Shown here: one piece after another, positions 1 through 8,841 of the stretch
Position numbering within the stretch: position 1 is the first letter of the stretch
How the letters are laid out: the number at the start of each line of letters is the position of its first letter
DNA from: Algibacter sp.
Lineage (GTDB): Bacteria; Bacteroidota; Bacteroidia; Flavobacteriales; Flavobacteriaceae
DNA: 38,415 nt
Assembly: GCF_029245835.1 (NCBI RefSeq)
Contig: NZ_JAQWOO010000040.1
Coordinates: 1-38,415, forward strand
Reading direction: 5' to 3'
The notes under the pieces: generated by a model
Seen by the model: only the letters and a program-made list of their open reading frames with translations
Database searches by the model: none
Told to the model about the DNA's origin: nothing
Program-made: the position numbers and the translations under genes

Positions 1-2001
1 TATAGTGTGTACTAAATTATCATTTATAAAAACCTTGTAAGTCGTTCCACTAACTTCTCCTCGTATGACATCACCTTCTACTACGGTATAATTAACTTTA
101 CCTATAGATCTTACTGAACCGTTAGTCATAACTAACATCTGTACTACACTACCACTACACTGCCATACTACACTCGATGTTGCATCACATCTAAGTGCTA
201 TACCCGACCAAGAAACGCCACCTCCTGCAAAAGTAGCTTCTGCCCATTGGTCGTCACCAAAAGTTCCCTTACGGAAAGCTACAGCAAATGTTCCTCCGCC
301 TGTCTCAATATTTTCAACTGTATTTGAAACTATACCAGCAGCGCCTCCTCCAAGTCCTGTAGAATGAGTCCAGTCTGGACCTAAATCATTAGAATCTGTT
401 CTATTAAAATTATCTGAAAAAAGATTGCCGCCATTCGCTGTATAGCCATCGCCATCAGCATCGATAACTACTGAGCCATCAGAAGTCGCTGGATTACAAT
501 CATCATCAATACCATTATTAACAATTTCTGTTGCGCCTGGATTGACATTCTCATCCGTATCATCACAATCGGTATTGTTATCAACATACCCTGATGGTTT
601 TGGGGCTGAAATTTGAGTCACAAAAGGATTACCAAAAGTATCTGAATCCAAATCCTGATACCAAGTTCTGGTTTTTTCAATAGTGAAATAATCAGTTATA
701 TCTCCATTTTTCCTTAAAAATTTTAGAGTAATGTTATAATCATTCACTTCAAGAATTGAAGATCCCAGGTTTGATACAGAATAATACATGGCATTATGAT
801 CTAAACTAGCAGCTGTTTCGTCTGAAGCCGTGGAGGTTACCACATAAACAGTACCTAATCCAGCATTTTCTCCAACACTTGTTTTACTATATGCCCCGTC
901 ACCATTAATTTTACCATCCCCTTGACCCGTTTGACCAACTGTGTGTGTTGCTAAATCAAATGTATTTGACAATCCATAATGACCATTAATGAAATAAGAT
1001 CTCTCATAAGAAACGCTGTGTGCTGCGATTACTAAATCTACTCCATTATCTTCGAGCATAGGAACAAAATTCTCCCTCATTTCCCTTAATTCAATTCCAG
1101 CAGGATTGCCATCGCCATCAAAACCTTCAGAAGCATGATAACCCTTTGAATAAGGTGGATGATGCCATAATGCCACTATCCATTGTTGAGTTGTGTTCTG
1201 AATATCATTTTCAGCCCAATCGTACATAGCACCTCCAACTGCCCTATTTTCATCAAAAGAATTCAATACAATAAAATGTATATTACCATAATCGAAGGAA
1301 TAATATGATTCTGTCCCAGATGCCATCCCTCCGGACTCTCCTGATGTAGGAAATGTAAAAATATCGTAATACGGTCCTGTTTGTGATCCTGAGTTTGCTG
1401 TTTCACCTTCATGATTTCCTAAACAAGACCAGGCAATTGTATTTTTTAATTGAGAATCATAGGTGTCAAAAATTTTCTCCTGATATTCAGAATCCGTACC
1501 ACTATTCATTGCATTATCTCCTAAGAAAAGTATTCCATCCGATTCATTAGATCCAATATAAGAATAGTAGGCGTCTCTAACTTCTTCTGCATCTTGTCTT
1601 GCGGAACTACCGCCGCGACCTGCATTTCCAACAACCCAAAAAGTGTATGGGTTTGATGTTCCAATAGTAGGATGCGTTTTAAAGTAAATGTCTGTACTGC
1701 CACTTAGTAAAGCTCCGCCTGTTCCTATCCTGTAAAAATATTTTGTACCTGGTGATAATCCTGTAATTTCTAGTTCGTGATCAGTTTTAGGAGTTGTTTG
1801 ACTCAAAGATAAATTATAGCTTGTATCCGTACTATATTCTATAATCGACGATGTACTAGAATTTGTTCTCCATTTTACAATAACACTTGTTGGTGTGCCT
1901 TTTTGAAGATAAGGGCCTCTAATGATAGTTTGGCTTAATGAAATGTAACTAACAAATAAGCTAAGACTTGCAGCTAATAATAATTTGTAATTCTGTTTCA
2001 T
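1..2001 (-). CDS. Secreted purple-acid-phosphatase-like metallophosphoesterase, 3' end off window
   Basis: An open frame from ATG at 2001 runs to the left edge without a stop (667 codons), so the C-terminus is missing. Visible parts: a signal peptide (about residues 1-24), an FN3-like purple acid phosphatase N-domain (26-110), a calcineurin-like domain (about 118-350), a MopE-type Asp-rich repeat (DCDDTDENVNPG onward, 478-503) likely to bind Ca2+, and from about 525 a jelly-roll/LamG-like region starting FSDNFNRTDSND. Phosphoesterase blocks are recognisable: LGDN at 160-163, LGNHE at 194-198, WHHPPY at 279-284 and AHSVSYER at 327-334. Usual metal ligands are changed at three places: GNAG instead of GDxG (N126), GDNAM instead of GDxxY (M165), and AHSV instead of GHxH (V330). 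Secretion is clear; phosphatase activity is doubtful. A type IX secretion C-terminal domain could lie off-window. Confidence 0.85.
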   Translation of the reverse strand, partial: MKQNYKLLLAASLSLFVSYISLSQTIIRGPYLQKGTPTSVIVKWRTNSSTSSIIEYSTDTSYNLSLSQTTPKTDHELEITGLSPGTKYFYRIGTGGALLSGSTDIYFKTHPTIGTSNPYTFWVVGNAGRGGSSARQDAEEVRDAYYSYIGSNESDGILFLGDNAMNSGTDSEYQEKIFDTYDSQLKNTIAWSCLGNHEGETANSGSQTGPYYDIFTFPTSGESGGMASGTESYYSFDYGNIHFIVLNSFDENRAVGGAMYDWAENDIQNTTQQWIVALWHHPPYSKGYHASEGFDGDGNPAGIELREMRENFVPMLEDNGVDLVIAAHSVSYERSYFINGHYGLSNTFDLATHTVGQTGQGDGKINGDGAYSKTSVGENAGLGTVYVVTSTASDETAASLDHNAMYYSVSNLGSSILEVNDYNITLKFLRKNGDITDYFTIEKTRTWYQDLDSDTFGNPFVTQISAPKPSGYVDNNTDCDDTDENVNPGATEIVNNGIDDDCNPATSDGSVVIDADGDGYTANGGNLFSDNFNRTDSNDLGPDWTHSTGLGGGAAGIVSNTVENIETGGGTFAVAFRKGTFGDDQWAEATFAGGGVSWSGIALRCDATSSVVWQCSGSVVQMLVMTNGSVRSIGKVNYTVVEGDVIRGEVSGTTYKVFINDNLVHTI

Positions 2002-2661
2002 AACAACTTAATTTATTCTGTTATGTTTCATATTTGATTAAGTAAATTCTCATGGGTACTTAAATCAAATCAGCAAAAAGCATCAATACTTTAAAAAGTG
2101 AATTAATAAGTTAAAATTATGCTAAAGGTTTTCATAACAAAAGATTTATATAAACAATTTATAAAATGTTAATAGAATTAAAACTGATAAATATCATTTA
2201 CCAAATAATATTTATCTTACACATATATAGTTGTACAATAAGCAATATGATACGTATAGTATAATCAAAACATACCGTCAAATAAAGAGTGTTCCGTTAA
2301 CATTTCAGAAGAAAATTTTAAGAATTAATTTTTTTTTAGAAACTGTAGAAAACTTTCGATTTTTACCAAACCTCAAGTTACATAACATGTTACACTTATT
2401 ATAACCCCTACAAGTTCAGAATGATATTTTAAATAATGCATTCGAGAAAAGAAATATTAACTTTTCTAGCTTTAGAAATAGAAAGCATAATATTTTTAAA
2501 ACATTAAAAATCATATTTTGTAATTTTAAATATCCTACTTTTTTTATTCAAAAAAATATCTTTATTAAGTCGAACTCAGGTTTTGAGGAACTATACTTGT
2601 ATTTAATTTTTTGTTATTAAAAAAATACCTAAAACGACATATATTCACCATTTTAAGATTC
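2002..2661. other. Non-coding spacer upstream of the phosphoesterase gene
   Basis: About 660 bases of very AT-rich DNA with no convincing gene on either strand. It must contain the promoter of the minus-strand phosphoesterase gene, but I found no good match to the flavobacterial -7 element. The only clear structure is a perfect 9-bp inverted repeat at 2186-2216, listed separately. Confidence 0.6.
2186..2216. repeat. 9-bp perfect inverted repeat
   Basis: GATAAATAT (2186-2194) and ATATTTATC (2208-2216) are exact reverse complements separated by 13 bases. The repeat lies about 185 bases upstream of the phosphoesterase start. It could be a regulator site or a hairpin in a long leader. In AT-rich DNA a chance origin is possible. 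Confidence 0.35.
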
Positions 2662-2703
2662 AAAAAAAAGGAGCAGAAATTTTTGCTTTCTACTCCTTTT
2701 AAT
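2662..2703 (-). terminator. Rho-independent terminator of the SDR/lactonase/GT2/ATP-grasp operon
   Basis: Read on the minus strand, AAAAGGAGTAGAAA and TTTCTGCTCCTTTT form a 14-bp stem with one G.U pair around a GCAAAAA loop, followed by a T run (A run at 2662-2669 on the plus strand). It lies about 120 bases after the stop of the last operon gene (2824), where the operon should end. Confidence 0.85.
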
Positions 2704-2823
2704 TAATCTTTTAGTCTAACAGAACTTTTTAAGTATCCTTGATTTTTTGGTTTTTTTCCTTTGTGATTTCGTTATCAAGTTTTTTTTACAAACCGTTTAT
2801 TATAAACGACATAATAAATTATT

Positions 2824-3594
2824 TTACCTTCCTAAATATCCCCCATCAACTGGGATAATAGTACCCGTAATATAATCACTAGCTGGTGATGCTAAAAACA
2901 CTGTTAATCCTTTTATATCCTCTCCATTACCCCACCTTTTCATAGGAACTCTCATGAACACTTCTTCTGTTCTTTTTTTGTCATTTATCAAGGCCGTATT
3001 TAACTGCGTATCCATATATCCAGGAGCTATACCGTTAACACAAATTCCCTTATCTGCCCAATCATTGGATAGGGCTTTGGTTAACTGTGCAACACCTCCT
3101 TTAGAAGCAGCATAAGCTGGAATAGTGATTCCTCCTAAAAAGCTCATTAAAGAGGCTATATTTATTATTTTTCCGCCTCCATTTTCTATCATGGTATTGC
3201 CTGCATATTTACAATAATAGAAAGTAGCATCTAAATTTATTGCAATAACCTTACTCCACTCCTCCTCTGGAAAATCTTCACTAGGATATCTTCTTTGAAT
3301 CCCTGCAGAGTTTATTAAAATATCTACAGTACCTCCCAAAATTTCTAAAGCAGCTTTATAGGAATCTTTAATTTGTTCAATCTTACTTACATCTGCTTTA
3401 AAAGGACTAACATTAAGTCCCTTATCAACCAGATCTTTACACATATCAAATACGCGATCATCATAATCAATAACTACAGTTTGGGCACCTGCTTCAGATA
3501 TTGCTTCAACCATAGCTATTCCAAGATCACCTGCTCCTCCAACTACAATAGCCTTTTTTCCTGTTAACTTAAACTGTTCTAAAATATTTTGCAT
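2824..3594 (-). CDS. SDR family oxidoreductase, KduD-like
   Basis: A 256-residue classical short-chain dehydrogenase/reductase. Nucleotide-binding glycines are GGAGDLG (19-25), followed by acidic D43 at the end of strand beta-2, which favours NAD(H). NSAG is at 95-98, N120 is the structural Asn, and the catalytic Ser-Tyr-Lys are S148, Y161 and K165. NSAGIQRR, the NGIAPGYMDT segment and the ending VDGGYLGR resemble 2-deoxy-D-gluconate 3-dehydrogenase (KduD). It is the last gene of a five-gene minus-strand operon, 92 bases after the ATP-grasp gene, with a terminator downstream. No pectin-degradation genes (KduI, polygalacturonase, SusCD) are nearby, so I infer it reduces or oxidises a sugar or sugar acid for glycan synthesis. 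The family is certain; the substrate is unknown. Confidence 0.9.
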   Translation of the reverse strand: MQNILEQFKLTGKKAIVVGGAGDLGIAMVEAISEAGAQTVVIDYDDRVFDMCKDLVDKGLNVSPFKADVSKIEQIKDSYKAALEILGGTVDILINSAGIQRRYPSEDFPEEEWSKVIAINLDATFYYCKYAGNTMIENGGGKIINIASLMSFLGGITIPAYAASKGGVAQLTKALSNDWADKGICVNGIAPGYMDTQLNTALINDKKRTEEVFMRVPMKRWGNGEDIKGLTVFLASPASDYITGTIIPVDGGYLGR

Positions 3595-3686
3595 TATTTA
3601 GTTTTTTATTTCTAAATCCTATAATTTATATTTCAAAATAAAGGGATTTTGTTTTGTTTTTATCTATTTGTTAATTCCTGAATAAA

Positions 3687-4979
3687 TTACTTTTTATCAA
3701 AAATATAATCCTCTGTATTCCATGGTTTTACCCATTCCAAAACCATATCGTTTCCTTTAGGGTCAGTAATTTTTAATAAGTTTTGAATGTCTTCAATAGT
3801 TTGATTAATCTCAAAAATTGAATTTCCAGCAGTATAAATTCTGAATAAAACCTGTCTTTCTGTACCAATAAAATCTTCCTTCACAGTATCACCTTCATGA
3901 AAGCGTTCTACAACAAAATGAACATTCTTATGCGCTTTCATTTCATCCAAGCCTTCAATTGAATCAATTTTTCCTGCTTTTAAAAGAACCCAAACAGAAC
4001 AAGCCGCTTTACCTCTAAACATGTAGTCATTTTTTTCGGGAAAATCATCTTCCCCAAAAACACCTGTAAATGCATAGTTTATTAGCATTTTTCTGTGATC
4101 AAACTCATTAATATGAGCGAGATGAATATGAGGCGCTTCGCCTTGTAGTCTAAATCCTGGGTCATATATATAAAAATTATTGTTTTCAATAAAAAACTGA
4201 ATATTGAGTACTCCAGCCGGAACATTTAGTCCTTCAAACATCGCACATAATTTAGGATGCACTTCTTTTAAAAACAATTCGGTATACATTGAAGGATATA
4301 CTGTACCTGTTGCAATTGGACTGGAATCACCTTGTAACCTTGTTAGTTGCCTGTCATAAGTTGCTGAAAGGTAGGGGGTGCCGTTTCTAAAAGTATAATA
4401 CACCGCCATATCATCACAATTTGTATCCATATATTTTTCAACCAAGACTACGCCTTTCTTAGAATGTTTCAATGCATTGTGCACGGTAGCAATATAGTCT
4501 TCATCATCTCTACAAATCTTCATTCCTACTCCTCCACCACTATCTACTGGTTTCACCATTAAAGGATAACTAATGTCTTTTGGTTTTTCTATTTCAGAAT
4601 CTTTTGTTAAATAAATTCCAGGGATGTCCTGTATATCGTACTTTTCACAATAACGTTTAAATCCATCCTTACTGCAAAATGCATCTATAGCCTTTTCATT
4701 TGCATAGCAGGGCATGTTTAACTTTTCACAGATCTTCTGGTATGGTATGACTAAAATATCAGCAACCCCAACTAAAATACCATCCACATTTCTTTCTCTT
4801 GCAACAGCTACAATTCCATCAACATCAAAACCATCTATCTCATAGGTTTCAGAGGCTCTTTTTTTCGCAGGAGTGTCAGGAACTGGATCAATAACAATAG
4901 TGTGTATGCCCATTGATTCTGCAATATCTACCAAAACAGCAGTTTCAGGGTTTCCTCCAAGAATTATAAGTTTTTTCAT
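3687..4979 (-). CDS. ATP-grasp domain carboxylate ligase
   Basis: A 430-residue ATP-grasp enzyme of the carbamoyl-phosphate-synthase-like type. An N-terminal Rossmann-like pre-ATP domain starts IILGGNPETAVLVDIA (5-20). The central domain has the ATP-binding Lys and Gly-rich loop in VKPVDSGGGVG (142-152) and VEKYM (180-184). The usual Mg2+ motif E-x-N-x-R appears as YDPGFR (272-277), with Gly in place of Asn. A C-terminal lobe follows (about 320-430). Members join a carboxylate, through an acyl phosphate, to an amine or other nucleophile. It sits 41 bases after the GT2 gene and before the KduD-like SDR. A sugar acid released by the lactonase-like protein of the operon is a possible substrate, which is inference. 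It could also ligate amino acids independently. Confidence 0.88.
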   Translation of the reverse strand: MKKLIILGGNPETAVLVDIAESMGIHTIVIDPVPDTPAKKRASETYEIDGFDVDGIVAVARERNVDGILVGVADILVIPYQKICEKLNMPCYANEKAIDAFCSKDGFKRYCEKYDIQDIPGIYLTKDSEIEKPKDISYPLMVKPVDSGGGVGMKICRDDEDYIATVHNALKHSKKGVVLVEKYMDTNCDDMAVYYTFRNGTPYLSATYDRQLTRLQGDSSPIATGTVYPSMYTELFLKEVHPKLCAMFEGLNVPAGVLNIQFFIENNNFYIYDPGFRLQGEAPHIHLAHINEFDHRKMLINYAFTGVFGEDDFPEKNDYMFRGKAACSVWVLLKAGKIDSIEGLDEMKAHKNVHFVVERFHEGDTVKEDFIGTERQVLFRIYTAGNSIFEINQTIEDIQNLLKITDPKGNDMVLEWVKPWNTEDYIFDKK

Positions 4980-5020
4980 TTGTATTTGTATTTAATGATA
5001 TTTTTATTAATTTTTTCTAC

Positions 5021-6256
5021 TCAATTAATTCCAACGTATTTAAAATCTTCATCAAAACCTAAATGAGATAATAGGTTACTTATTTCTTCTTCGTTAGAAT
5101 TTATTTTTACAATTTTATTTTTATCAATACCCATTAAATCCAATTCGGTTTTAATTGAAGCATAAGTAGTTGGATTAATAGTTGCGATTATTAAAAAATC
5201 AAAGTCATTGTTGTTAATGGAACTGATGGGTTCAACAGTATTTCCATCTATATTTAAATCGTGAAAATCAACGTCAATCCACTTAACAATTTGAAAAAAA
5301 CCTACTTTTTTATTAGTCGATAAAATATGCTGTCCGAAAGAACCAGAACTATAAACTACGACTTTTGAGCCCTGTTCTAACCTCAAAAAGGGATTGAATA
5401 AAATACCACCAGAAGGATCCTCAATCAATCCTCCAGATCTAATCAAAATTTGTGAGTATAAATAATATTTAATTTGTTTACTTAGATTTTCTTGACTAAG
5501 CACATGACTTAGTTTTAGTTTTAAAAAGTTCATCAGTAAACCTAATCTGTAATATTCAATTTTAGGATTTTCTATAGATTTTACTATGGAATCATGCCTT
5601 TGTCTGTAATAATAAAGTGGAATTCTACTTATTACTAAACTTTTTGAAATGGCTAGGTAAGAATAGGTTATTGCCGCATCTTCACCCATAATAATTTCGT
5701 TTGGAACATCAAAAAGGACTTGATTTAATAATGCTCTTTTAAAAAGCTTATTCCAAACGTATGTAGATATATCGTGTTCGCAAAAATCACCATTATAAAT
5801 TGCATTTGGTAAAATTGAAGATTTGATTTCATTCTCATTGTAAATCCCTGCTATTTTCGGTTTAATAGTTTCAATTTTTCCATCAAATTCTCTAAAACGA
5901 CCTGTCTCAACTAGGTCAGAATTATTTGCTTCGGCAAGTTTAAATAACGTATCTAGATAAAACTTATCTACCCAATCGTCTCCATCAACATAAGAAATAT
6001 ATTTGCCCTTAGCGGCTTTTAAACCTGCTTTTCTTGCACTTAATAACCCGCCGTTTTTTTTATGAATAACTTTTATTCTAGTATCTTTTTTCGAATAATC
6101 ATCACAAATTTTTGGACAATTATCAGGACTACCATCATCTACCAAAATTAGTTCAAAGTTCAAGAATGATTGATTTAAAAGGCTATCAATACATTCAGGT
6201 AAATACTTTTCAATTCGAAAAATTGGAACTATTACGCTAATTTGAACAGTAATCAT
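5021..6256 (-). CDS. GT2 family glycosyltransferase with C-terminal Rossmann-like domain
   Basis: 411 residues. The N-terminal GT-A domain starts ISVIVPIFRIEKYLPECIDS, with LVDDGSPDN (38-46) for nucleotide binding and the DxD-like metal motif DGDDW (91-95). The chain GGLLSARKAGLKAAKGKYIS is typical of capsule and LPS transferases using UDP- or dTDP-sugars. After about residue 300, KVVVYSSGSFGQ and DFDFLIIATINPTTY look like a Rossmann-like nucleotide-binding module, as occasionally appended to glycosyltransferases. It has no transmembrane segment and so is probably a cytoplasmic enzyme acting at the membrane face. It sits 4 bases after the SMP-30-like gene, which suggests co-translation. Donor and acceptor cannot be read from the sequence. 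Confidence 0.9.
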   Translation of the reverse strand: MITVQISVIVPIFRIEKYLPECIDSLLNQSFLNFELILVDDGSPDNCPKICDDYSKKDTRIKVIHKKNGGLLSARKAGLKAAKGKYISYVDGDDWVDKFYLDTLFKLAEANNSDLVETGRFREFDGKIETIKPKIAGIYNENEIKSSILPNAIYNGDFCEHDISTYVWNKLFKRALLNQVLFDVPNEIIMGEDAAITYSYLAISKSLVISRIPLYYYRQRHDSIVKSIENPKIEYYRLGLLMNFLKLKLSHVLSQENLSKQIKYYLYSQILIRSGGLIEDPSGGILFNPFLRLEQGSKVVVYSSGSFGQHILSTNKKVGFFQIVKWIDVDFHDLNIDGNTVEPISSINNNDFDFLIIATINPTTYASIKTELDLMGIDKNKIVKINSNEEEISNLLSHLGFDEDFKYVGIN

Positions 6257-6260
6257 AAAT

Positions 6261-7079
6261 TTAAATTTTATCTAATTCTAAGTAAAACAATCCGCCTCCG
6301 TAAATATCTTCTTTAAAGTCTTCTTTAGCTGTTGTAATATATAAGTTAGAATAATTATCAAAACAACATGAGGTAACGTTACTACAAGGCAATTTTATTT
6401 CTTCTATCTTTTCACCGTTTAAAGGATTCCATTTAGATATACATCCACCGCCCCATTCAGCAATCCATAGCATACCGCTTTTATCAATACACATACCATC
6501 AGGATTACCAGCACCTGTAAATTCAATGACGTTTGATTTAAACTTTACCTCTCCAGTTTTTAAATCATAAGCATACTTCGCTACTTTTTTTGTTGGTGTA
6601 TCAATAAAGTAAAGAAATTTACCATCGTGCGAAAAGGCTAAACCATTTGAAATAGTGGTGTTTTTAATAATTGTTTTATACTCACCCTTATAATAAGAAA
6701 ATACCCTTCCTATTTTTTCTTTAACTTCTGGATACCCCATTGTTCCAATAATAACTCTTCCGATTGGGTCTTTTATTCCATCATTATATCTCACCGATTT
6801 ATCTATATCAATTTGAAAAACTAATTTCTTTTGTAATGTATTGAAATCAATTTCGAAAAAACCATTTTTAGAGGACACTAAAATTATTTTTCTTTTTAAT
6901 AAAAAAACACAACTAACAGGAGAATCTAGTTTCATACTTAAAATTTCTTTAGTTGAAGGATTATAACAATAAACCAAACAATCCAAAATAGAAACAAAAT
7001 AGAGATAATTGTTTTCTTTATCAAAAACAGGACCTTCTAAAAGTTCTGAACTAGAATAAAAAACTAAAGATGGAATCAT
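6261..7079 (-). CDS. SMP-30/gluconolactonase/LRE-like lactonase
   Basis: 272 residues forming a six-bladed beta-propeller of the SMP-30/regucalcin family, which hydrolyses sugar lactones using one divalent metal. All four family metal positions are recognisable: E15 (LEGPVF), N99 (RYNDG), N145 (ISNGLAF) and D194 (GNPDGM). The block KDPIGRVIIGTMGYP is also characteristic. There is no signal peptide, so it is cytoplasmic. It lies between an SDR (8-base gap) and the GT2 gene (4-base gap). An SDR that oxidises a cyclic sugar to a lactone followed by this hydrolase would yield an aldonic acid; that pairing is inference. It could instead act as a regulator or on a non-sugar lactone. Confidence 0.9.
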   Translation of the reverse strand: MIPSLVFYSSSELLEGPVFDKENNYLYFVSILDCLVYCYNPSTKEILSMKLDSPVSCVFLLKRKIILVSSKNGFFEIDFNTLQKKLVFQIDIDKSVRYNDGIKDPIGRVIIGTMGYPEVKEKIGRVFSYYKGEYKTIIKNTTISNGLAFSHDGKFLYFIDTPTKKVAKYAYDLKTGEVKFKSNVIEFTGAGNPDGMCIDKSGMLWIAEWGGGCISKWNPLNGEKIEEIKLPCSNVTSCCFDNYSNLYITTAKEDFKEDIYGGGLFYLELDKI

Positions 7080-7087
7080 AAAATTAA

Positions 7088-7834
7088 TTATATATATTGA
7101 CCCGCAGTTACTCTAATCAATGAACCTGTTGTCATTGCAGATTCATCAGAGATTAAATGCATTACTGCAGGCACAGGATCAAAACGATTACAAATACGAC
7201 CCAATGGAAGAATTTTAGCGGCTTTGCGTTTTAATTCTTCTTCAGTCATTCCTTCTGAATCTCTTAATTCAATTTCTCCTTCTGTATTTGTCCAACCCAT
7301 AACCACGTAATTTGATCGAATACCATGCTCAGCATAATGATGTGCTAAATGAGTCGACAAAGTGTAAAGCGCACTTTTGGTAAGCGCATATGCCGCCCTA
7401 TTTTTCATACCATAATCCATATGAGCAGAACCAAAAAATATTATAGAACCTGTTTTGAATTCAATCATAGATTTTAATACATGTTTAAGCAGAAAATATT
7501 GAGACTTAAGATTGACATTAAAAACGCTATCATAAACATCTTCTTCAGTTTCAGTAATAGAAGCAATAGGAGTTATTCCGGAGTATAAAACTAAAGCATC
7601 TATCCTTTTAAATCTTTTTATTGTCTGAATGAAAAAATTTTCAATTTCGCTAATTGAATTTAAGTCAATTTCATGAAAATAGAGCTTATCTTCTGCTTGC
7701 AAAGATTCGATAATCTTATTTCCTTCACTAGAATTTCGACCACAAAAAGCAACATTATAACCTTTTTTTAAACAGGATTCAAGTACCGCGTTACCTACTC
7801 CTTTGGTTCCTCCTAAAATCATTACTGTTTTCAT
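7088..7834 (-). CDS. SDR family oxidoreductase, first gene of the operon
   Basis: 248 residues. The cofactor loop is GGTKGVG (8-14) and R33 after beta-2 (FCGRN) suggests NADP(H). LYSG (83-86) replaces the usual NNAG. N108, S136, Y149 and K153 form the active site (GSAHMDYG, AYALTK). The C-terminus ends ITVAGQYI-like (RVTAGQYI), an SDR C-terminal pattern. It is first in the five-gene operon and follows a 400-base divergent spacer with a candidate -7 element at 7877-7884. Its position directly before a lactonase suggests a sugar dehydrogenase or a ketoreductase in nucleotide-sugar chemistry. It is clearly a different subgroup from the SDR at the operon end, so the two are unlikely to be redundant. 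Confidence 0.9.
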   Translation of the reverse strand: MKTVMILGGTKGVGNAVLESCLKKGYNVAFCGRNSSEGNKIIESLQAEDKLYFHEIDLNSISEIENFFIQTIKRFKRIDALVLYSGITPIASITETEEDVYDSVFNVNLKSQYFLLKHVLKSMIEFKTGSIIFFGSAHMDYGMKNRAAYALTKSALYTLSTHLAHHYAEHGIRSNYVVMGWTNTEGEIELRDSEGMTEEELKRKAAKILPLGRICNRFDPVPAVMHLISDESAMTTGSLIRVTAGQYI

Positions 7835-7876
7835 AAATATGTTTAGTTAATAATATTATTTAATTTTAGCATAGTT

Positions 7877-7884
7877 CAAATCTA
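7877..7884 (-). promoter_or_regulatory. Candidate -7 element of the SDR/lactonase operon
   Basis: CAAATCTA on the plus strand reads TAGATTTG on the minus strand, a full match to the Bacteroidota -7 consensus TAnnTTTG, 43 bases before the ATG at 7834. No TTG is visible at the expected -33 spacing. Confidence 0.4.
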
Positions 7885-8204
7885 ATTTATTTAATACTAG
7901 AACTAATTATTTAATCTATATAACGAAATTAAACTCGTTTAAAAGAGTTATTAAAATTAAAAAAATAATTAAATATAAATATCAAAAAAGACTATTAAAT
8001 TAATAATCTAATTCTTTCATGTGTAAAAAAGGCATTTATGAATAATGGATAATAATGATGCTTTCGAAGCTATTTATATGAAATTTTTTCTTATTAAAAT
8101 TGAAGTCTATTCATATAAAAAGATAATATATTGCTATTATTTACACATTACATGCAGTTTGATCTTTTTAAACGAAAAAATTTAGTTTTACAATCACGAA
8201 AATG

Positions 8205-8212
8205 TACATTTG
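8205..8212 (+). promoter_or_regulatory. Candidate -7 element of the phosphoglycosyl transferase operon
   Basis: TACATTTG matches TAnnTTTG and lies 23 bases before the ATG at 8236. The -33 region is T-rich (TTTAG at 8181) rather than a clear TTG. Confidence 0.45.
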
Positions 8213-8235
8213 CTTTCTAAAAATTTAAAATTAAC

Positions 8236-8841
8236 ATGTATAAAAATTATTTTAAGAGACTATTAGATATAGTTGCTGCTATAGTTGGATTAATTATCCT
8301 CTCACCCATTATAATTTTTTTGATAATTGTTTTAAGCATTAGTTTTAAAGGCAATCCGTTTTTTTTACATCCAAGACCGGGAAAAAATAGTGTAATATTT
8401 AAGGTTTTAAAGTTTAAATCTATGAATGATAAAACCGATGAGAATGGCGTTTTATTACCACATAACATGAGAGTTACAAAAACTGGAGATTTTATAAGAA
8501 AGCTCTCGTTGGATGAATTACCTCAACTTATCAATGTTTTAAAAGGCGATATGAGTTTAATTGGCCCAAGACCTTTAGAGGTTCGTTACTTACCACTATA
8601 TAATGATTTTCAAAAGCAAAGACATAATGTAAAACCAGGTATTTCAGGTTGGGCACAGGTTAATGGACGAAACGCTGTTTCATGGGACGAAAAATTTGCA
8701 ATGGATGTTTGGTATGTAAAAAACATATCATTAAAAACTGATTTAAAAATTGTAATATTAACGATAAAGAAAGTGTTGTTAAGAAAAGACGTGAATGCTA
8801 GTGAATCTTTAAACATGGCTCCATTTTTAGGTAATAAATAG
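8236..8841 (+). CDS. PglC/WcaJ-type phosphoglycosyl transferase (priming sugar transferase)
   Basis: A 201-residue bacterial sugar transferase. It has one N-terminal hydrophobic segment (about 9-36) of the monotopic reentrant type, then the catalytic region with SLDELPQLINVLKGDMSLIG (91-110), where D93-E94 form the Asp-Glu dyad at the same numbering as in Campylobacter PglC. GPRPLEVRYLPLY and KPGISGWAQVNGR complete the signature. Such enzymes transfer a phospho-sugar from a UDP-sugar to undecaprenyl phosphate, starting a lipid-linked oligosaccharide. The length is that of the minimal PglC form, without the N-terminal membrane domain of WbaP/WcaJ. It is first in the plus-strand group and divergent from the SDR/lactonase/GT2 operon, so it probably starts the glycan those genes build. 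Confidence 0.93.
   Translation: MYKNYFKRLLDIVAAIVGLIILSPIIIFLIIVLSISFKGNPFFLHPRPGKNSVIFKVLKFKSMNDKTDENGVLLPHNMRVTKTGDFIRKLSLDELPQLINVLKGDMSLIGPRPLEVRYLPLYNDFQKQRHNVKPGISGWAQVNGRNAVSWDEKFAMDVWYVKNISLKTDLKIVILTIKKVLLRKDVNASESLNMAPFLGNK

Follow-up and report, generated by a model that had tools for sequence, protein, structure and literature searches.

The window, by which we mean the whole stretch of 38,415 nucleotides of Algibacter sp. DNA analysed here, begins with a gene on the minus strand whose frame stays open for 667 codons and runs off the contig end (Table 1). Both the Pur_ac_phosph_N domain and the calcineurin-like Metallophos domain of its product score above the Pfam cut-off, and the protein thus has the domains of a purple acid phosphatase (PAP); it is the sole PF16656 protein of the source genome, a count that covers PF16656 only. 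A Cu-binding MopE motif and a lectin-like repeat follow, and a second, diverged copy of this repeat is found on contig C40. At E 0.01 a sequence comparison with solved structures gave nine PAP sequences and nothing else, the best being wheat PAP phytase (E 4.5e-15). The AlphaFold model of the protein is weak (mean pLDDT 54.5, pTM 0.65), with the three positions of main interest below lying in or beside stretches of pLDDT <50; PAPs rank first in a Foldseek search with this model (6gj9, 3.3e-14), at an rmsd of 9-14 Å in the PAP rows, and because the model is weak we used the match for the PAP fold only and not for the geometry of the site.

Table 1. Features of the PAP-like gene and its flank (positions are those of the window; residue numbers are those of the predicted protein)
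Feature	Position	Strand	Basis
PAP-like gene, residues 1-667	1..2001	-	ORF open at contig end
Signal peptide, residues 1-23, probable	1933..2001	-	by-eye reading of translation
Pur_ac_phosph_N (PF16656), residues 33-109	1675..1905	-	Pfam E 1.1e-12
N126, at M1 Asp of GDxG	1624..1626	-	codon AAT; plant PAP alignment
Metallophos (PF00149), calcineurin-like, residues 150-331	1009..1554	-	Pfam E 4.3e-12
D162, bridging Asp, 13/13 clade members	1516..1518	-	codon GAT
M165, at M1 Tyr of GDxxY	1507..1509	-	codon ATG; plant PAP alignment
N196, M2 ligand, 13/13 clade members	1414..1416	-	codon AAT
H197 of GNHE, kept in window gene and L027; Leu/Ile in other 11	1411..1413	-	family alignments
H280, M2 ligand, 13/13 clade members	1162..1164	-	codon CAT
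H328, M2 ligand, 13/13 clade members	1018..1020	-	codon CAC
V330, at second (M1) His of GHxH	1012..1014	-	codon GTT; plant PAP alignment
Cu-binding_MopE motif (PF11617), residues 478-506	484..570	-	Pfam E 1.5e-07
Lectin-like repeat, about residues 524-667, cut by contig end	1..432	-	weak sub-threshold PF24268 match
131 bases identical to end of contig C40, likely gene continuation	1..131		sequence identity
Gap of 822 bases between PAP-like gene and SDR gene	2002..2823		TPR gene here in A. luteus (L028)

The assignment of the PAP ligands to the Fe(III) site (M1) and to the second metal site (M2) is established: the Asp of GDxG, the Tyr of GDxxY and the second His of GHxH belong to M1 only, the Asn of GNH(D/E), the His of VxxH and the first His of GHxH to M2, and the Asp of GDxxY bridges the two. 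The ligand register of the window protein was set by alignment to solved plant PAPs and by family alignments. In the former, GDxG falls on GNAG, GDxxY on GDNAM, GNHE on GNHE and GHxH on AHSV, and the His of VxxH falls on H280. Against the full set D, D, Y, N, H, H, H, given as a seven-ligand rule in the part of the tea plant PAP study covered here (PMC6515233), the window protein has N, D, M, N, H, H, V, and the M2 set of bridging Asp, Asn and two His is complete (D162, N196, H280 and H328). It shares with wheat phytase (6git) and the kidney bean PAP (4dhl) the N-terminal PAP domain and the calcineurin-like domain, five motif blocks in the same order and four of the seven ligands, but all three M1-only ligands are replaced and the phmmer similarity is just 25-58 bit. 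The original prediction, made from the sequence of the window, had placed N126, M165 and V330 at the Fe-site positions and taken the other four residues to be intact, which both sets of alignments bear out; the three codons that it had read directly are indeed AAT, ATG and GTT, its residue numbering is right, and the frame is open and the motif residues of the fold are present, as it had stated. The least number of base changes from the canonical to the observed codons is one for N126, three for M165 and two for V330. Since at least six base changes are needed, the three residues can hardly be put down to sequencing error, and the clade-wide pattern described below also speaks against this origin, which we rejected.

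The search for homologues drew on overlapping samples, namely 60 relatives, 397 genomes of the family, 10 of the genus, 395 of the order and 68 of the genus to which the Winogradskyella loci belong, and a set of named genomes was scanned once as well; as the family and order searches were samples, the clade counts given here refer to sampled genomes only. Thirteen distinct flavobacterial homologues with altered M1 positions were found: the window gene, one from a Flavobacteriaceae MAG (L027), one from Algibacter luteus (L028) and ten from genus g176, which we take to include Winogradskyella because L029 and L030 share their first 350 residues with two g176 rows (L076 and L075, respectively). 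For the same reason L029 and L030 were dropped from the rows, being retained for the domain and synteny work; L049, L050 and L001 were dropped as duplicates of L027, L028 and L008. Repeat loci of genomes already included (L100-L109) and a duplicate reading of the L098 gene (L099) were left out of the 40-row tree set, and L019-L021 fell below the alignment cut-off in the wider family alignment. All altered rows group together in a single clade (support 100/100), both with the ligand columns included (37 rows) and with these columns excluded (40 rows), on a stem that is long (0.47 changes per column in the 37-row tree). Both PAP domains are present in all five clade members scanned (window, L027, L028, L029 and the L083 gene). 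All seven ligands are intact in each of the 27 closest canonical relatives examined, 26 from the 40-row tree set and one read separately. Flavobacterial PAP-like proteins of the canonical kind that carry a type IX tail (L009, L010 and L052-L068) have the same domains as the window protein and a core identity to it of 50-61%, except for L062 (49%) and L063 (38%); in contrast to the window gene, none of them lacks any of the seven ligands. Canonical relatives this close, whose existence the original prediction had said would make the window gene a lone decayed copy, are thus known, but so are 12 further altered homologues; a lone decayed copy is rejected for the clade, with its 13 altered homologues in one supported group, and may still describe the window copy. 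In the 68 genomes of the genus with Winogradskyella the altered gene was found in 10 and the canonical gene in five, and no genome had both at E 1e-25. Among viral contigs no relative of the window protein was found; three phage records matched at 25-28% identity, and 18 plasmid records matched, all at <60% identity, those among the matches listed at 22-35%.

The states at positions 126, 165 and 330 are N-M-V in the window gene, N-Y-L in L027, which thus retains the Tyr and has Leu at 330, H-G-E in two members and G-D-E in nine; over positions 126/162/165/196/197/280/328/330 these members read NDMNHHHV, NDYNHHHL, HDGNLHHE and GDDNIHHE, respectively. D162, N196, H280 and H328 are retained in 13 of 13 members, and no change on the tree is needed at any of the four; the fewest changes that the tree allows are three at each of positions 126, 165 and 330 and two at 197. 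The His of GNH(D/E), at position 197, is lost in 11 of the 13 members and E330 is fixed in the same 11, so that the change is wider than the loss of one site; D165 is fixed in all nine G-D-E members. What had been proposed from the window alone, namely a mononuclear enzyme, a binding protein or a new chemistry following losses confined to one site, is upheld in part: M1 is altered, and D162 and the M2 ligands kept, throughout the clade. Confinement to one site is true of the window gene and L027, but not of the 11 members that also lack His197, and the co-occurrence of N, M and V that might have been expected in a clade was not seen, as the combination is present in the window gene only. Nor is there support for three independent losses, as the group label changes once, on the clade stem, with at least three state changes at each position.

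Ninety-nine core columns are invariant in 24 canonical relatives; 71 of these are the same throughout the 13 clade members, and 28 differ in one member or more and five in every member. The columns altered in 12 or 13 members number nine, and they include each of the three M1-specific ligands (hypergeometric 5.4e-4, to be taken as a guide only, since all columns evolved on a single tree). A set of 13 more distant relatives always has D126 and H330 but never Tyr at 165; loss of the Tyr alone would thus be unremarkable, and it is the losses at 126 and 330 that carry weight. That D162 and the three M2-only ligands are all kept does not reach significance in the 99-column test (chance 0.26), because 71 of the columns are unchanged anyway; that the second metal site was specifically spared is hence a description and not a tested excess. 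The other six columns changed in at least 12 members are 138, 292, 390, 393, 397 and 438. Three of them (390, 393 and 397) are Gly positions within a single conserved loop (window about 811-834, minus strand), which is of the form TGSAG... in canonical proteins and of T-S/A-x-x-S/A types in the clade, G390 and G393 being changed in all 13 members.

To gauge selection, dN/dS was computed for clade pairs with >82% core identity, of which there are nine, all between G-D-E members. The values are 0.043-0.107, versus 0.0-0.095 in 15 canonical pairs, a sixteenth being a single gene read twice and therefore left aside; with dS near 1 in most of the G-D-E pairs the figure is rough. The low values in these close pairs indicate that the G-D-E form is maintained, and the altered protein is under purifying selection in this subgroup. 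The nearest relative of the window gene is 67% identical, too distant for dN/dS, and the selection figure says nothing direct about the window gene. The altered site is a property of the clade, and the view that it is maintained by selection and is not the random decay of a single copy is supported, directly so for the G-D-E pairs.

The contig end bears on the state of the window copy. Of the clade members scanned, the two that are complete (L029 and the L083 gene) have a type IX sorting domain, as do canonical L009 and L010, whereas the window gene, L027 and L028 are all cut ahead of any secretion tail. The frame on C40 that likely continues the window gene has MopE and lectin-like repeats, then an in-frame TGA (C40:104942-104944), and beyond it a segment recognised by eye as resembling a type IX tail. 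As the C78-C40 joint falls within a repeat with copies 87.8% identical, the TGA could be real or an assembly fault, and the joint itself may be one too. A gene for a TPR protein lies directly upstream of the PAP-like gene in 11 of the 13 clade loci and is present in 10 of 10 wider canonical regions, nine of which have it beside the PAP gene, the exception being L090, where about 3 kb separate the two; it was seen in 12 of 27 short canonical loci, whose flanks are often too short to show it. The window locus and the L027 locus have no TPR gene. In A. luteus (L028) the TPR gene stands between the PAP-like gene and an SDR gene 94% identical to that of the window; the corresponding gap of the window holds no TPR gene, nor any remnant of one above the chance level, and the best TPR match in the genome of the window is 22% identical at E 8e-4. 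The missing TPR partner, the TGA before the tail-like segment and an M1 combination that matches no other clade member would fit a window copy in decay within a clade whose other members are functional. We regard this as improbable, given a frame open over 667 codons in which all fold-motif residues and H197 are retained, the equal lack of a TPR gene in L027, and a joint and a TGA that may both come from the assembly.

Building on the observed ligand states, single clade, domain make-up and purifying selection among G-D-E members, we favour a reading to which we would give about an even chance, namely that the window protein is a surface PAP-fold binding protein, a pseudo-phosphatase that binds no more than a single divalent metal, in its M2 site. 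The Flavobacteriaceae clade would have lost the Fe(III) site once, in its ancestor, the positions of that site having varied since while D162, N196, H280 and H328 were held. The hydroxide that attacks the substrate in a PAP is activated by the Fe(III) site, and departure of the leaving group is assisted by the His of GNH(D/E). Without a metal at M1 the hydroxide nucleophile would not be activated, and with M1 gone, and His197 gone in 11 of the 13 members, the PAP reaction is not expected. The four retained residues could hold one divalent metal at M2, through which the protein, probably displayed at the cell surface by type IX secretion, may bind a ligand that is acidic or carries phosphate, with help from the MopE and lectin-like repeats. 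By the usual criteria for a pseudoenzyme, the predicted catalytic residues are lost in the window protein, and selection is seen in the G-D-E subgroup alone.

The fixation of E330 in 11 of 11 members with an H-G-E or G-D-E site, and of D165 in all nine of the latter, would also suit an M1 site rebuilt with acidic ligands for a hard metal (Mg, Mn or Ca), E330 standing with D165 or H126 beside D162; the protein would then be a hydrolase or a metal-binding protein with a new chemistry, and the window gene a side branch with an empty site. Purifying selection as strong as in canonical genes is in keeping with such a remodelled enzyme. We nevertheless think it unlikely: His197 is missing from the same 11 members, V330 and L330 stand in place of the Glu in the window gene and L027, respectively, and the rebuilt site is predicted from sequence. 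That the PAP fold is an inert domain of a surface adhesin, binding no metal and acting as a scaffold, is suggested by the lectin-like and MopE repeats; we hold it to be very improbable in view of four metal-ligand residues invariant in 13 of 13 members, even though their retention alone is not significant. Returning to the loss of the Fe(III) site, a wider proposal that we make tentatively, and with some doubt, is that in this PAP lineage the site became either an acidic one (E330 with D165 or H126) or none at all with the other site fixed, a two-metal enzyme thereby turning into a one-metal or hard-metal surface protein of which the window protein would be the barest form.

Among metallophosphoesterases of other kinds, MPPED2 has a Gly in place of a metal His. 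MPPED1 and MPPED2 are a metallophosphoesterase pair set apart by one histidine, according to a figure legend (PMC10547211), and are intracellular class III enzymes with a motif set unlike that of the window protein. In tea plant, CsPAP2, CsPAP29b and CsPAP3b are PAPs with missing ligands; as in the window protein, the Asp of the first block is lost there, PAP29 types have Phe for the Tyr of the second block, and five candidates without three of the five blocks were called inactive, the portion of the article covered describing no joint loss of the three M1 ligands with M2 intact (PMC6515233). Single losses of M1 ligands in plant PAPs are, on the same partial source, already known (PMC6515233). 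No report of a PAP lineage in which every M1 ligand is replaced was found in the part of the literature covered, and such a lineage is apparently new; in the CC-licensed part of PMC we found no paper on a PAP pseudoenzyme or on a metallophosphoesterase with one site lost. The seven-ligand, N-Y-L, N-M-V, H-G-E and G-D-E forms make up an evolutionary series in which one site is dismantled or rebuilt and the other held; comparison of its members would test whether M2 alone binds ligands or catalyses, and bears on the role of a phosphatase fold at the cell surface once it is no longer a phosphatase. Annotation pipelines would label these altered proteins phosphatases.

Some features of the neighbourhood deserve mention in their own right. 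The TPR gene is coupled to PAP-like genes across the Flavobacteriaceae (for instance L028:2069-2863, L091:6439-7302 and L092), the two genes overlapping or standing a few bases apart in many loci, and its product has a signal-peptide-like start followed by AHG(D/S/N)L. A di-haem cytochrome c peroxidase gene lies near the canonical PAP-like gene in four of the ten wider regions (L088, L089, L090 and L094), the L088 gene (L088:9105-10976), the only one submitted to Pfam, being identified as CCP_MauG. A SusD-family gene (L091:2525-4246, by Pfam), with a relative in L095, is found upstream of the TPR-PAP pair, which hints at a nutrient-uptake locus for canonical members. In the window, the PAP-like gene adjoins genes of surface-polysaccharide type by Pfam (2824-8841), coding for SDR, ATP-grasp, family 2 glycosyltransferase, SMP-30-like and bacterial sugar transferase proteins.
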